Assembly: GCA_961205875.1 (NCBI GenBank)
Contig: OY540812.1
Location: 15,128,001 to 15,192,000 of the forward strand
Length of the DNA stretch: 64,000 nt
Direction: 5' to 3'
DNA from: Sialis fuliginosa
Taxonomy: Eukaryota; Arthropoda; Insecta; Megaloptera; Sialidae
The notes below the pieces were generated by a model. That model was not told the DNA's origin, ran no database searches, and was given only the letters and a program-made list of their open reading frames with translations. A program made the translations under genes and the position numbers. This document shows, in pieces, positions 52,383-64,000 of this stretch. The stretch's first letter is position 1. Each line of letters opens with the position of its first letter.

Positions 52383-54286
52383 TTAATCTACATCCTCTAC
52401 TGACTGATGACTTTCTTCTGTTTTATTTTTATTCGCTTCTGGAACCCACAAACCAGAATCTACACATCTTTTCATGTGATAGCGTGCTTCTTCTTCACTC
52501 ATTTTAGCTATTGCTTCTTGAAGCATTGAAACATCTTGTGTTTCAAAACATTTTTTCAATTCATCTGGAAGTGTTTCAAATACTTCGACTGGATCTAGTC
52601 CTCCAGGGCCTAATCTTTCAGTACGTTCCTCTTCTTCTACTTCAGCTAAAGCTTCTTGAACTTTTTCTGCGGCACGTTTTCGGATTCTCGCTTTGAATTG
52701 TTTCAATTCATCATCAAATGACATTTTGTATTCTGGTTCCGCTACTTTTATTCTACTGAAGAATGAAGGAACACAAGCACGTGGATGTACTTTCAACTGT
52801 TTTGATAATTCCAAAATGTATTGCATACAGATAGTCTGATGAGCAACATGTTCCATCAAGTCATGTTTCTGAAACAAATATATTTGATATTAATAAAACT
52901 TAAGTGGGGACCAAATATTAGATTATGTTATTAGTTATTTTATTTTATTGAATTTCGAAAATGTCCCGGAACTGTAAATATCGACAAGTCACTGTATCTG
53001 TGAAATCTGATGAACCAAGTTGGTTTTGTAGCAATTCTACGGCATTTTTGACTACTCAAAACGCACATCAACAAAAAAGTTAAACAAAAGTGTTTTAAAA
53101 ATAACACCTATAAATAGTTTTGGTTAATACGGAGAACATGTGTATCCGCTGTCAGATTTGTGAAAAATCACGTATATAATTATTCAGAATAGAGTTGATG
53201 CGCATGAGTCAACATTTTTTACGTTTATTTTATTTGATAGAATTATTTAAAACAGTTTGTTGCGGCGGACATTGAATTTCCGTTTTTAACATAACAAAAA
53301 CTAACCAACCCAAAACTAATCAACTTAATTTTGCCGCAACTAAGGACAGTTAACATGTATTATATAAGAGCATTAACTCTATTCTGAATAACTATACACG
53401 TGATTTTTGACAAATTTTACAGCGGACACTCATGTTCTCTGTATTAACCAGTTTTTAATACACTGTTTTTGTTTTGCTATTTTGGTATTAAACAAGCATA
53501 AAAATATATGCTCCATATTATTAAGTTTCATTAATTATATAGACAAACAAATACCTCTTCCATTTCTAAATTGATACACCAAATTACAAGATAATTTGCT
53601 GTGTTTTCACACACTAATTGCCCATGATCTTGTAAAAATTTCTGCGAATCTTCAAATTTGCGTAATACTCCAAACTGCTTTAATAATTTTTCATTTTCTT
53701 TAATGAATTGTTTCATTCTCTTTTCTCGTTCCTCTTCAGAAAGTTGTTCATCATCTGGTAATGGATCTTTTGTATTTACAATTGTTTTAGTAAATCCTTC
53801 TTTACTGATAGTATCAATATTCCAAGGAGTTGTTTTTTCCTTTATTTTCAATTCTTGTTCTTTCTTTTTAATTTCTTCAGATTTTAATTCTAGTTCTTTC
53901 ATTGTTTTTTGAAGTTCAGCTATTTTGTCGGTATCATTTAAAGCTTCGATTTTAGATTTTAATTCTGACACTTGTTTGTCATGTTGTAATTTCAATTTTT
54001 CAATTTCTTCTGTTTCCTTTTTCTGTTGTTCCATACGCTCTACTCGTGCTTGATGGCGCCATCGAAACAATGATGGTGTGTCAATATTTGGATGAGTTTC
54101 ATCTTCATCATCAGATATCTATTACCATAAATGAAATTATAGTTAACTAAAATCTTATAAGTATCGAACATTTGCTTACTTTTGTATTTAATTACTTAAT
54201 TATATATAGTTATTTTGCAAAATAAGTTTTAATTTTAACCTAAAAATAATTACCTCTATATCTTTCCATTTACTGTAATCAACCAT
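52383..54286 (-). CDS. Cdc37: Hsp90 co-chaperone Cdc37
   Basis: Three exons read on the minus strand: 54,286-54,254; 54,118-53,555; 52,868-52,383. All junctions are phase 0, giving 360 aa (human 378). The product delivers protein kinase clients to Hsp90 in the cytosol. Diagnostic features: N-terminus MVDYSKW; SDDEDETHPN with Ser13 in an acidic CK2-type context and the HPN motif at 20-22; FRWRHQARVERMEQ; a long coiled coil at about 40-120; PWN.DT.SK.GF; the Hsp90-binding middle domain with NYLVIWCI and VAHQTI; and LGPGGLDPVEV and SGLWVP in the C-terminal domain. The gene is tail-to-tail with AMBRA1 and head-to-head with the gustatory receptor. Intron 2 carries a foldback repeat. No sign of damage; the start is fixed by family conservation. 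Confidence 0.97.
53075..53475. mobile_element. Foldback element R4 in Cdc37 intron 2
   Basis: The left arm (GGTTAATACGGAGAACATGT, then TTATTCAGAATAGAGTTGATGC) is mirrored by the right arm (GCATTAACTCTATTCTGAATA, then CATGTTCTCTGTATTAACC), with about 130-bp arms and a GC-richer centre (GTTGCGGCGGAC). A partial copy is at 15,683. Non-coding; it lies wholly within the intron, away from the splice sites. Confidence 0.75.

Positions 54287-59117: not shown

Positions 59118-59120
<3 letters not shown>

Positions 59121-59152
<32 letters not shown>
59121..59152. repeat. (TA)16 microsatellite at the retroelement boundary
   Basis: A pure TA run directly abuts the 3' end of the Penelope-like element (the first bases of the element also read TATATTAG). 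It may be the insertion target or a simple-repeat tail made during insertion. Confidence 0.9.
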
Positions 59153-59156
<4 letters not shown>

Positions 59157-60180
59157 TATTCATATATATGACCATCTTGATATTATTTAAATATACCTAT
59201 TTTGTAGGGGTTTTTTTTCAGGTCAAAATATTAATTAAAGAACTAAACCAATGTTCAAATCATTTTAATTAATAGCGCTTATTTAATTTTCAACATTTTT
59301 GTCTTCATCAGAAATTAACAAATTATCACTATAAGAAATCATAAACATAAGTAAGTAACATAAGCAGATGAACAAGATATTTCTAGATGTAAACATATTT
59401 TTTTTTTTTACTTACAATTTAAACAGTAATTGGTGTGTACATTTGTATGTAGTAAAAGATGCATAATTACATCAAAAAAATTTTTTTTTTTATTTTTTAA
59501 TATTAAAAAGTACCCATTCTTGTACAAAAGACTAAAAATATGTAAATGTGATATCAAACAGATAAAACAATATATAAAAACAATTTTTTTTAAAAATTAA
59601 AACTTAAAATTTAGTTTAAAAACGTTAAAAATTAATAAAATTCGTATCACATTATATCACATGTTGAAAAGTATTTATAATAAGATAAAGCTTAATTAAA
59701 CAAGAAACATCAATTGTTTTTACTTAAAAATAGTTACAAATTTATTATACAAACATGAAAAAAAAAAAAGAAATAAAATTACTAGTGTTTCAATGAACGA
59801 AAAGCACTAGTATTACAAACTTAATTATATTTATTTACATCTATGGAAAACAAAAATCTTATCTATGTTAAATGTCAATTTTAAGTACAAGGTAACCTAG
59901 AAAAATTTTTTTTTAAAAATTAATAAAAGAGAGAAAAAAAGGAACATAAAACCATCAAAATCAAACTAAAACATATACCTAATCAAACAAAAATGAAAAA
60001 AGATAAAATTAATAGAAAAACCAAAAAATGGCATACAATACAAGCAAAAAGAAACGTAGAAAAAAGAAGAAAGAGGAAAAAAGAAAATTTATTTAATTAA
60101 ATTTAGATATGATTCTTTTAGGTGATTAAGATTTTCTCTAGAGTTAAGACATTTAGGTTCTTTTAAGATATGTAACGATT
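59149..60180 (-). repeat. Downstream pseudo-LTR of the PLE
   Basis: Direct repeat of 62,732-63,762 at an offset of 3,583 bp at its start and 3,582 at its end, owing to one extra A in the run at about 59,758-59,769. It includes the last ~30 codons of the ORF (to the stop at 60,089), an A/T-rich 3' region and a hammerhead-like motif near its end. Confidence 0.93.
59256..59325 (-). ncRNA. Hammerhead-ribozyme-like motif, downstream copy
   Basis: Read on the minus strand: core CTGATGA (59,311-59,305), a short irregular stem II, GAA (59,291-59,289), stem III AATTAA pairing with TTAATT (59,290-59,285 with 59,272-59,267), then A at 59,266 as the cleavage residue (UUA triplet). Stem I is weak (ATTT with AAAT plus wobble pairs). 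Hammerheads in the terminal repeats of PLEs are an established finding. The core residues are intact; the poor stem I and stem II leave doubt about activity. Confidence 0.45.
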
Positions 60181-62758
60181 CACTAAGTAATCTTTTTTTT
60201 AAAATAGGCTGAAAATCTAAAATTTCAACATCACCATATTCAACTTCGTGACCAGTCTGTTGTATATGGGTACGAAGTGCAGTAACTTCATTTTTAGCAT
60301 ATTTATGACTGTTGATTCTCTTTTGCAAGTATTGTTTAGATTGCCCTAAGTAAGAATAATCACAAGAACATTTAAGTTTATAAATAACGTTAGAACATTT
60401 CATCTTATCAGTTTTATTTTTCAATTTAGAATAAAAAATTTTTGTAGTATACTTATTTTTGTTTATCATTTTTATATTATGTCCTGAAACAACTCTTTTC
60501 ATTTTTTCAGATAAAATAGGTATATACGGGAATGAAAAATATATTTGATCATCATAAGAGTAATTGGAATTATCTGCAACAGCCAAATTTTTACTATTTT
60601 TATTATGTCCATAAAGTATACTTTTGAGTCTATTATTTATAGTGTTTTTAAGAAAATTAATGGGATAACCATTTAATAAGAAAATATTGTAAACTTTGTT
60701 GAGTATTTGACTTCTATATTTAAAATTAGTGAATTTAATTGCCCGGTCTAAAATAGCAGTAATAACATTACGTTTATGTTCAATAGAGGAATTAGAATTG
60801 TAGTTCAAATATCTAGCGGACCAGGTAGGTTTGGTATACCATATGGTTTCAACTTTATTATGTTTATTAATCAAAATTTTAATATCTAGAAAACTAATTT
60901 CTCTATTTTGATTTTCAAGTTCATAAGTAAATTGTAATCTATTATGAAAAGAATTAAAGCTATTGCATAAAGTTTCAATTTTATCCGAAGGTATTGCTGT
61001 AATGATGTCATCAACATATCTTTTAAAAAAAGGAATCTCATAATCTACATTTTTCAAAACAGAATCTTGTAGTTCGTTCATAATAATATCAGCCAAAACA
61101 ACAGATAGAGATGAACCCATAGGTGCTCCATAAATTTGTGAATAAAATTGATTTTTAAACTGGAAATATGACGTATTGCAACAAAATTTCAAACCATCAA
61201 TAAAATCGTCCTTCTCAATATTAGTGTATTTTTTTATTTCTTCCCATTTATTAGTGATAATCTCAATAGTAGTATCAATAGGTATGTTAGTAAACAATGA
61301 TTTAACATCAAGTGAAATTAATTTATATTTATTAGGTATATGAAAATCTTTAATAAATTCATGGAATTCCCACGAGTCTTTCACGGTATTATTATTAGCA
61401 GTAATATTTTTTAAAATATCAGAGAAAAATTTTGACAATTTTTGTTGTGGGCTATTATATGAAGCAACTATAGGTCTGACAGGATTATTTACTTTATGTA
61501 ATTTTATCAACCCGTAAATTTGTGGAGGAGTACTATTATGCACTTTAAGTTGGTTACTCAAATTTTGATCAATATAACCCATTTCATAAAATTTTTGAAT
61601 AATGTTATTGTTTTTGTTCTGGAAAATATTAGTGGGGTCTTTATGTATTTTAAGATATGTTTCACCATCATTTAACAGCTCATACATTTTATTATCATAA
61701 TCTACTTTATCGATCAATACGGTTTTATTAGTTTTATCAGCACGAATCACTTTGATATTTTCATTCTCCTTAAAAAACTTCCTTGCATCAGAAACATCCT
61801 TAATTAGAGAACAATTATATTTATTATTCAAAAAATTGTTTTTTTTCATGTTATCCTTGTACTGATTAACATTATATATAAATTTATTTCTAATTAAGTT
61901 TTTTTCATTTTCATCTAGGTTGTCAATACCATATTCAAATGAAATAATCATATCATTGATAGGTAGATTATTATTATTATAGGGTAAATTGAAATTTGAT
62001 CCAAGTTTTAATAAATTGTTAATATTATCTGGTATCTTGTTAGAGGTTAAATTAACAACAAAATTCTCCTCATTGTGTTTAAGAGGGTTAAATTCAATAT
62101 CTATTGGTAGCTTACAATTATATTTGTTATTATATTTAGAAACATGGTTATTACTTATTATTAAATTTCTATTTTTATTATTATTATAGTTATCTACTAT
62201 CTGTTTAGAACTATTGATACAATTATTAATATATTGGTTTTCATTAACCATGGCTTCAGACTTCAATTTATTAAATTTATTAATGACAACATTAATTGAT
62301 TTATAATAAGTAAATTGATAAATAGAACTTTCAATGAAAAAAACTTGTTGTAAATCAGATATAGTGAGATATTGTTTTAGCAAACTATGACATTCATTAA
62401 TACAATTTTTGTTATTTTTTAAATTACTAAAGGTTTCTGAAATTAACAGATTTAATAGCTTGTACTTAAAATTATTTAAAATATTGTTATATCTATGTTT
62501 ATTGCTATTATTACTTAAAGAAATAAAGTTTTTTTTATTATCAAATTTACTATTCATAAATTTAGGAAAAAGATTATTCTTTTTACAACTTATAAGGAAA
62601 AATTTTTTTATATCTAGTCTTGCCTTTGCACTATATAATTTTCTTACTTGTTTCATTCTATCTTGGATGTCTTCATTTTTATATTTGTTGAGTAGAGAGT
62701 TCATATTACACTTATCATCCCCAGTGTTTTTTATATTAGTATTCATATATATGACCAT
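60089..62758 (-). CDS. Penelope-like reverse transcriptase with C-terminal GIY-YIG endonuclease
   Basis: 889 aa, uninterrupted. The N-terminal ~330 residues are N/K-rich without a named domain. The reverse transcriptase spans about 330-660: SLDVKSLFTNIPI at 482 (motif A), GAPMGSS at 544 (motif B), catalytic YVDD at 581-584, EISFLDIKI at about 620. The endonuclease spans about 785-865: VIYKL at 791, SYLGQS at 802, Arg814, Glu860 in LSESLHI, with Cys788/797/799 and His818/831/837 as possible metal ligands. In this family the nuclease nicks the target DNA and the reverse transcriptase copies element RNA onto the nick. The chosen ATG lies in the upstream direct repeat, 27 bp inside its edge; Met5 and Met19 are alternatives. 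High Asn/Lys content follows the element's AT richness. Confidence 0.95.
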   Translation of the reverse strand: MVIYMNTNIKNTGDDKCNMNSLLNKYKNEDIQDRMKQVRKLYSAKARLDIKKFFLISCKKNNLFPKFMNSKFDNKKNFISLSNNSNKHRYNNILNNFKYKLLNLLISETFSNLKNNKNCINECHSLLKQYLTISDLQQVFFIESSIYQFTYYKSINVVINKFNKLKSEAMVNENQYINNCINSSKQIVDNYNNNKNRNLIISNNHVSKYNNKYNCKLPIDIEFNPLKHNEENFVVNLTSNKIPDNINNLLKLGSNFNLPYNNNNLPINDMIISFEYGIDNLDENEKNLIRNKFIYNVNQYKDNMKKNNFLNNKYNCSLIKDVSDARKFFKENENIKVIRADKTNKTVLIDKVDYDNKMYELLNDGETYLKIHKDPTNIFQNKNNNIIQKFYEMGYIDQNLSNQLKVHNSTPPQIYGLIKLHKVNNPVRPIVASYNSPQQKLSKFFSDILKNITANNNTVKDSWEFHEFIKDFHIPNKYKLISLDVKSLFTNIPIDTTIEIITNKWEEIKKYTNIEKDDFIDGLKFCCNTSYFQFKNQFYSQIYGAPMGSSLSVVLADIIMNELQDSVLKNVDYEIPFFKRYVDDIITAIPSDKIETLCNSFNSFHNRLQFTYELENQNREISFLDIKILINKHNKVETIWYTKPTWSARYLNYNSNSSIEHKRNVITAILDRAIKFTNFKYRSQILNKVYNIFLLNGYPINFLKNTINNRLKSILYGHNKNSKNLAVADNSNYSYDDQIYFSFPYIPILSEKMKRVVSGHNIKMINKNKYTTKIFYSKLKNKTDKMKCSNVIYKLKCSCDYSYLGQSKQYLQKRINSHKYAKNEVTALRTHIQQTGHEVEYGDVEILDFQPILKKRLLSESLHILKEPKCLNSRENLNHLKESYLNLIK

Positions 62759-62838
62759 CTTGATATTATTTAAATATACCTATTTTGTAGGGGTTTTTTT
62801 TCAGGTCAAAATATTAATTAAAGAACTAAACCAATGTT

Positions 62839-62908
62839 CAAATCATTTTAATTAATAGCGCTTATTTAATTTTCAACATTTTTGTCTTCATCAGAAATTA
62901 ACAAATTA
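62839..62908 (-). ncRNA. Hammerhead-ribozyme-like motif, upstream copy
   Basis: Identical to the motif at 59,256-59,325, with CTGATGA at 62,894-62,888. It lies about 80-150 nt upstream of the ORF start codon, so cleavage would define the 5' end of an mRNA-like product. Confidence 0.45.
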
Positions 62909-63670
62909 TCACTATAAGAAATCATAAACATAAGTAAGTAACATAAGCAGATGAACAAGATATTTCTAGATGTAAACATATTTTTTTTTTTTACTTACAA
63001 TTTAAACAGTAATTGGTGTGTACATTTGTATGTAGTAAAAGATGCATAATTACATCAAAAAAATTTTTTTTTTTATTTTTTAATATTAAAAAGTACCCAT
63101 TCTTGTACAAAAGACTAAAAATATGTAAATGTGATATCAAACAGATAAAACAATATATAAAAACAATTTTTTTTAAAAATTAAAACTTAAAATTTAGTTT
63201 AAAAACGTTAAAAATTAATAAAATTCGTATCACATTATATCACATGTTGAAAAGTATTTATAATAAGATAAAGCTTAATTAAACAAGAAACATCAATTGT
63301 TTTTACTTAAAAATAGTTACAAATTTATTATACAAACATGAAAAAAAAAAAGAAATAAAATTACTAGTGTTTCAATGAACGAAAAGCACTAGTATTACAA
63401 ACTTAATTATATTTATTTACATCTATGGAAAACAAAAATCTTATCTATGTTAAATGTCAATTTTAAGTACAAGGTAACCTAGAAAAATTTTTTTTTAAAA
63501 ATTAATAAAAGAGAGAAAAAAAGGAACATAAAACCATCAAAATCAAACTAAAACATATACCTAATCAAACAAAAATGAAAAAAGATAAAATTAATAGAAA
63601 AACCAAAAAATGGCATACAATACAAGCAAAAAGAAACGTAGAAAAAAGAAGAAAGAGGAAAAAAGAAAAT

Positions 63671-63762
63671 TTATTTAATTAAATTTAGATATGATTCTTT
63701 TAGGTGATTAAGATTTTCTCTAGAGTTAAGACATTTAGGTTCTTTTAAGATATGTAACGATT
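63671..63762 (-). pseudogene. Truncated PLE ORF remnant in the upstream repeat
   Basis: About 30 final codons of the PLE ORF (ending ...ESYLNLIK, stop at 63,671-63,673) survive at the 5' edge of the upstream repeat. It is in the same orientation as the full ORF, separated from it by about 900 bp of 3' region. It shows that the upstream repeat derives from a 5'-truncated tandem copy. Confidence 0.9.
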
Positions 63763-64000
63763 AAGAACCTAAATGTCTTAACTCTAGAGAAAATCTTAAT
63801 CACCTAAAAGAATCATATCTAAATTTAATTAAATAAATTTTCTTTTTTCCTCTTTCTTCTTTTTTCTACGTTTCTTTTTGCTTGTATTGTATGCCATTTT
63901 TTGGTTTTTCTATTAATTTTATCTTTTTTCATTTTTGTTTGATTAGGTATATGTTTTAGTTTGATTTTGATGGTTTTATGTTCCTTTTTTTCTCTCTTTT
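63763..64000 (+). mobile_element. Inverted partial PLE copy, runs off the window
   Basis: The + strand here equals the minus-strand sequence of about 63,744 downwards: it encodes the last ~23 codons of the PLE ORF (stop at about 63,834) and then the same 3' region. Arms GACATTTAGGTTCTT (ending at about 63,744) and AAGAACCTAAATGTC (from 63,763) flank an 18-nt spacer. This is a head-to-head junction of two 5'-truncated copies. Confidence 0.92.

Follow-up and report, generated by a model that had tools for sequence, protein, structure and literature searches.

Paired tailed and tail-less ends in head-to-head insertions of a probably active Penelope-like element of Sialis fuliginosa

The insertion at the locus and its coding capacity

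The window, by which the whole stretch of 64,000 nucleotides that was analysed is meant (G000:C4:15128001-15192000, from a 392-Mb genome in 20 contigs), contains a Cdc37-like exon (52383-52877, minus strand) and the exons of a 7tm chemosensory receptor gene (PF08395; 55879-58232, plus strand), the latter adjoining an insertion that starts in a (TA)n microsatellite, read directly as target and left flank at 59120..59152. The core of the insertion is a full-length unit of 3583 nt on the minus strand (59149..62731) that recurs genome-wide; unit coordinates run from q1 at window position 62731 to q3583 at 59149, where the outer 3' end with its tail lies. Tail here designates the segment (59149..59183, minus strand) that separates the 3' end observed at about q3549-3552 from the one observed at q3583. 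The unit is preceded in the same orientation by a 5'-truncated upstream copy, the pseudo-LTR, which begins at q2552 (62732..63762, minus strand). Sequence comparison places the head-to-head junction of the two arms at 63744..63763, and from there an inverted arm with q2570 as its first position (63763..64000, plus strand) extends for roughly 750 nt outside the window, where it finishes with a 3' end without tail and (TA)n. The whole insertion amounts to about 5.6 kb; both outer borders are element 3' ends flanked by (TA)n, which gives the layout 3'<<<5'|5'>>>3' within a (TA)n microsatellite.

A preliminary description of this DNA had proposed direct repeats of 1.03 kb that differ by a single homopolymer base and head-to-head arms cut at about codon 865, and both proposals hold. 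Internally, 59149-60180 and 62732-63762 differ only by a single base of a T run, the remaining mismatch being the last base of the compared stretch, and the truncated copies begin at q2552 and q2570, corresponding to codons 860 and 866 and lying 18 nt apart. The segment 63763-64000 is 100% complementary to 63507-63744 with a spacer of 18 nt. Among the 80 matches listed, the exact junction at 63744-63763 occurs at the window locus only. Rfam microRNA matches at the junction were rejected, as they reflect only the palindrome and score below gathering.

The open reading frame, described earlier as intact for 889 codons, indeed encodes 889 amino acids without a stop (60089..62758, minus strand); its start codon corresponds to q3557 of the preceding unit, so that the first 27 nt precede the unit boundary. 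The protein encoded by this single frame is a reverse transcriptase, as a 400-residue piece matches the RVT_1 profile PF00078 (60962..61486, minus strand) with an E value of 2.3e-9 and 37.7 bits against a cut-off of 29.6. The profile scan of the whole protein reported no RVT_1 match, which we infer to be due to its asparagine-rich composition. Further downstream, the C-terminal region (60110..60420, minus strand) contains residues, recognised by eye, which we take to be GIY-YIG-like and which would make this region a putative GIY-YIG-type endonuclease. No GIY-YIG profile of Pfam, PHROG or NCBIfam matched this region, and a single-sequence fold of the C-terminal piece reached a pLDDT of 35, too poor to use. 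A scan of viral contigs found no relative.

A consensus scan also pointed to a hammerhead-like motif at 59257..59326 (minus strand), with the core CTGATGA at 59305-59311, and to a second copy at about 62840-62909 on the same strand, giving one motif per unit composed of CUGAUGA, a 4-bp helix II, GAAA, a short helix III and helix I. Such a motif is present in 3 of 3000 dinucleotide shuffles, and no Rfam hammerhead matched at E<=5. The pseudo-LTR carries what appears to be a minimal type I hammerhead motif, whose cleavage is a prediction and would fall at q3447-3467, about 90-110 nt upstream of the ATG. Pseudo-LTRs made of 5'-truncated tandem copies are present, as are the inverted arm and the optional tail of 30-40 nt. 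Judged by reverse transcriptase, hammerhead-like motif, pseudo-LTR, tail and inverted arm, the element classifies as an animal Penelope-like element (PLE). As far as the available portions of these papers go, pseudo-LTR, inverted arm and optional tail have already been described for animal Penelope elements (PMC3846280), and the features given in a second paper match as well (PMC8969392).

Copies across the genome and their architecture

How young is the element? The best 51 of 1038 protein-search candidates are all full length, share 99-100% protein identity and are free of stops, in a search whose scoring favours full-length stop-free copies. The pattern of the tailed outer end occurs exactly at 95 places, and in 31 of the 34 full units examined the reading frame stays open over 870 codons or more, whereas it is broken in three. 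Units within the same insertion differ by 17 substitutions in 158.5 kb compared, nine of which fall in two insertions, C2:20.9 and C6. Assuming an insect mutation rate of about 3e-9 per generation, the insertions are at most tens of thousands of generations old. More diverged variants account for several small insertions, whose longer matches are 88-98% identical to the window unit. The copies in the genome are not all degenerate, and the proposal of a very young element and candidate for an active lineage is supported: the Penelope-like element is young and probably active, and its partial copies occur both in tandem and inverted.

Among 22 insertions read at the 5' side, 21 consist of two arms that meet head-to-head and point outward with their 3' ends; as eight of the 21 had been picked from already paired ends, the unselected figure is 13 of 14. 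For two of the 21 (C10:0.02 and C3:36.75) the reading did not reach both outer 3' ends, and C10:0.06, C10:7.2 and C5:32.9, whose centres were not read through, stand outside the count. The remaining insertion, C10:15037921-15044596, is one-armed, with a tailed 3' end in (TA)n and no opposite arm within 0.9 kb beyond its 5' end. It resembles an ordinary LINE insertion. The arms range in size from less than 60 nt to more than 22 kb, and the largest insertion, C10:0.02, comprises six full units on the minus and five on the plus strand. Tandem units are joined seamlessly at q3583|q1 in all 40 internal joins, which are identical to each other, a further row of the join listing being an expanded A run rather than a join and therefore left out. 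In the largest array the plus arm stops at C10:42685 with q288 instead of a 3' end and adjoins a G+C-richer repeat, probably as a result of later rearrangement.

It could be imagined that the head-to-head structure is an assembly artefact or was made by later inversion or recombination between separate insertions. Two contigs end within element units (C10:1-118 on the left and C3:36777800-36779039 on the right), and the subtelomeric arrays C3:36.75 and C10:0.06 have flanking sequence in common, are probably duplicates and may not be independent, so that some copies may be segmental duplicates. Nevertheless, an origin of this kind is extremely improbable, because 21 loci with different junctions have a common design, many of them with private variants, and because the rule on tailed and tail-less ends described below holds across loci.

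Some further observations concern single copies. A run of seven A within the open reading frame (at about q826) is expanded by about 65 bases in a single unit at C1:22116676-22120325 and by about 24 bases in another at C2:35823786-35827391, both in a slippage-like manner. The minus arms of C2:19522833-19523251 and C3:9629098-9629530 have an 87-nt deletion in common (q3318-3404) and both break at the 5' side at q3053; they are perhaps a mobilised deletion derivative. A role at telomeres was considered and rejected, since on C7, which opens with (CCTAA)n telomere repeats, the first copies lie about 48 kb further in, a subtelomeric rather than telomeric position, and since C3 (right) and C10 (left) merely end inside units.

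Outer ends, private variants and breakpoints of the two arms

The tail, about 31 nt long, is missing from one outer end. All 11 insertions read at both outer ends have one tailed and one tail-less end (for the adjacent pair at C2:35.8 the inner ends were taken from pattern listings); the tail-less end lies at about q3549-3552 in nine of them and stops a few bases earlier in C6 and C3:21.29. A list of ends for C1-C3 and for C4 up to 26.07 Mb holds 74 entries, 37 tailed (32 exact and at least five with one mismatch, the latter listed up to C2:9.8 Mb) and 37 tail-less (complete for the contigs counted). Counts of tailed ends with two mismatches include internal joins and were left unused. When outward ends closer than 60 kb are paired, 60 of the 74 fall into 30 pairs, and 29 of these are mixed, a number reached by none of 200,000 label shuffles. 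As eight of the 11 insertions read at both ends are among the 30 pairs, the rule is kept in 32 of 33 distinct insertions. The exception, C3:33659629-33679211, is tail-less on both sides; this pair and the 14 listed ends without a partner count against the explanation that we prefer below. The tailed arm is the longer one in 7 of 11 insertions, which is not significant, and a length difference was dropped. Runs of (TA)/(AT) of 8-65 nt lie beside all 22 ends of the 11 complete insertions and reach at least 12 nt at 20 of them, as compared to 0 of 5000 random 65-nt stretches of the window; the end-pattern searches require TA beside the end and are uninformative on target choice.

Do both arms derive from one template? 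When homopolymer indels, fragment ends and everything beyond q3535 are left out, 17 insertions yield 23 variant columns that are fixed in one insertion and private to it, and all 19 private variants testable in both arms are found in both. A further 25 columns vary in one unit only, and 18 of these belong to C6, C5:20.8 and C2:20.9. No column in these 17 insertions was classed as common to at least two but not all units, a class that insertions of two or three units can hardly show. Closest to an exception is q3350 in C2:20.9, where two of three copies carry the variant, both of them inner partial copies and not the outer unit, a pattern that speaks against the preferred explanation. Opposite arms, compared as one pair per insertion, differ by no substitution in 16 of 20 insertions, two more overlapping too little for this comparison. 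Measured against every other insertion, the sister arm is closer in 12 cases, tied in six and farther in two (C3:22.4 by one base and C6 by three), the last two being again at odds with the preferred explanation. A plain BLAST version of this comparison, in which 15 of 21 sister arms scored lower than the best other insertion, is confounded by the tail and by homopolymers and was replaced by the substitution test.

LINE-type reverse transcriptases jump templates. Each tandem unit could in principle have been copied from a separate linear one-unit RNA, the enzyme leaving each RNA at its 5' end and resuming at the start site of another, and the statement that tandem copies are common in PLEs (PMC8969392, in the portion available) would agree with such a process. 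It is nonetheless very improbable, as the internal joins all fall at one position and none is tail-less, though the outer ends use both sites, and as the units of an insertion contain the same private variants.

On the unit circle, 0-1449 nt separate the 5' breakpoints of the two arms (n=21). With a mean of 343 and a median of 216 nt they are closer together than under shuffled pairing (p 0.0003 for the mean and 0.0013 for the median), and seven of the 21 pairs lie within 25 nt, which none of 200,000 pairing shuffles reached; five distances above 600 nt argue against the preferred explanation. Short insertions contribute to this closeness; where the arms are unequal by over half a unit, as in five insertions, the breakpoints are 18, 126, 162, 219 and 385 nt apart (p 0.008). 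Closeness of the breakpoints, compared here for the truncated copies of 21 insertions, is therefore general and correlated within insertions, but it is set insertion by insertion and not at one codon. The earlier suggestion that the shared breakpoint reflects a specific mechanism, be it template switching or a processed RNA end, stands in so far as chance does not account for it. A fixed processed 5' end is rejected, since the breakpoints vary between insertions and are spread over the unit and since none of 42 arm 5' ends lies at the predicted hammerhead cut, the nearest being at q3485, 18 nt off.

An older proposal for PLE palindromes, made for Adineta on an antisense template (PMC3846280, in the available part of the text), is self-priming, whereby a single cDNA primed at one target strand snaps back at its 3' end and copies itself into the inverted arm. 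The seven junctions with breakpoints 0-25 nt apart, which are near-perfect palindromes, are what such folding would leave behind. Yet the phases of the arms differ by 98-1449 nt in the other 14, the tail-less arm is longer in 4 of 11 insertions, and the second outer end stops near a fixed site that matches the published start-site position and does not run back through the tail into a mirrored flank, so that we regard self-priming as improbable.

We consider it likely that instead both cut strands of the target prime reverse transcription of one RNA, each from one start site. A dimeric RNP, presumably holding a single RNA, would cut both target strands, and from each new 3' end this same RNA would be reverse transcribed, on one side from the tail site within the start of the open reading frame and on the other from about 31-34 nt upstream. 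The two cDNAs would then run to the same template end or stop and be joined head-to-head by end joining. Tandem units would stem from a template with repeated units, either a multi-unit transcript or a circularised one-unit RNA. Consistent with this mechanism, the purified PLE protein of Anolis cuts and extends both strands of AT-rich DNA in vitro and begins reverse transcription within the RNA, at two neighbouring sites between which the tail lies (PMC11167929, in the available excerpts). According to the same excerpts strands do not differ in start-site use in vitro, which counts against our explanation, as do the one-armed insertion at C10:15.04 and the lack of profile confirmation for GIY-YIG. 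With good though not full confidence the element itself can be described as a recently active, putatively endonuclease-type animal PLE in (TA)n microsatellites.

In a more specific and rather unlikely version the hammerhead would make one-unit circles, and a dimeric RNP would copy one circle from both strands for several rounds. Equally doubtful is the further detail that each reverse transcriptase starts at its own site, about 31 nt from the other, which would amount to a two-headed rolling-circle target-primed reverse transcription. If true, this would account for arrays that are two-armed and internally uniform and also for the start of reverse transcription inside the RNA. As the start sites would lie only about 80-135 nt from the 5' end of a linear monomer cut by the hammerhead, a full-length copy would need a circle or a multimer. 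Uniform units favour a bottleneck of one unit without being proof, because the source arrays are themselves uniform, and the homogeneity of the units is only consistent with a circular monomer RNA as template. In the available excerpts on Anolis the hammerhead is dispensable in vitro (PMC11167929).

Comparison with known Penelope-like elements

The literature, as far as its available portions tell, still asks how PLEs insert, why tandem and inverted copies arise and what the hammerhead ribozyme does. Since this genome contains many little-mutated insertions, these questions become approachable by counting ends, breakpoints and common variants. That insertions almost strictly pair a tailed with a tail-less end, both arms stemming from a single template, is evidence from in vivo events that two start sites on one RNA are used in coordination, and what the genome adds is the use of one site on each side and of the same template by both. 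No comparable count of tailed and tail-less ends was found in the literature searched, which comprised the available text of open-licence papers.

The following likenesses and differences refer to the accessible parts of the respective papers. Like PLEs of the Penelope/Poseidon type (Penelope of D. virilis, PAc of Anolis) the element has one open reading frame with a reverse transcriptase, a pseudo-LTR made of tandem copies, an optional tail of 30-40 nt near the start of the reading frame and an AT-rich target. In contrast to D. virilis Penelope and Anolis PAc the target is a (TA)n microsatellite, and unlike in Penelope and PAc an array can have six or more full units in one arm together with five in the opposite arm. 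The end positions flank the A of the start codon, about 5-8 nt before and 27 nt after it, whereas reverse transcription of PAc starts 111-118 nt inside the reading frame, and the predicted hammerhead cut precedes the ATG by about 90-110 nt but is 26 bp downstream of it in PAc. Priming on both strands was observed in vitro for PAc (PMC11167929) and is here suggested by the genome sequence alone. Pen1-Pen6 of Adineta vaga have tandem and inverted pseudo-LTRs, head-to-head palindromes and, as here, a tail on one inverted pseudo-LTR, of 31 bp in their case (PMC3846280); they are low in copy number with several broken, whereas the many little-mutated insertions described here have ends and arms that can be counted. 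Retrozymes and circular RNAs with hammerheads similarly consist of tandem units with one hammerhead motif each (PMC7761336); unlike retrozymes, the present element encodes its own reverse transcriptase, and a circular RNA is only hypothetical here. The structure as such is already known from these systems, and what is useful is the counted end rule and the evidence for a shared template, which in this genome are unusually clean.
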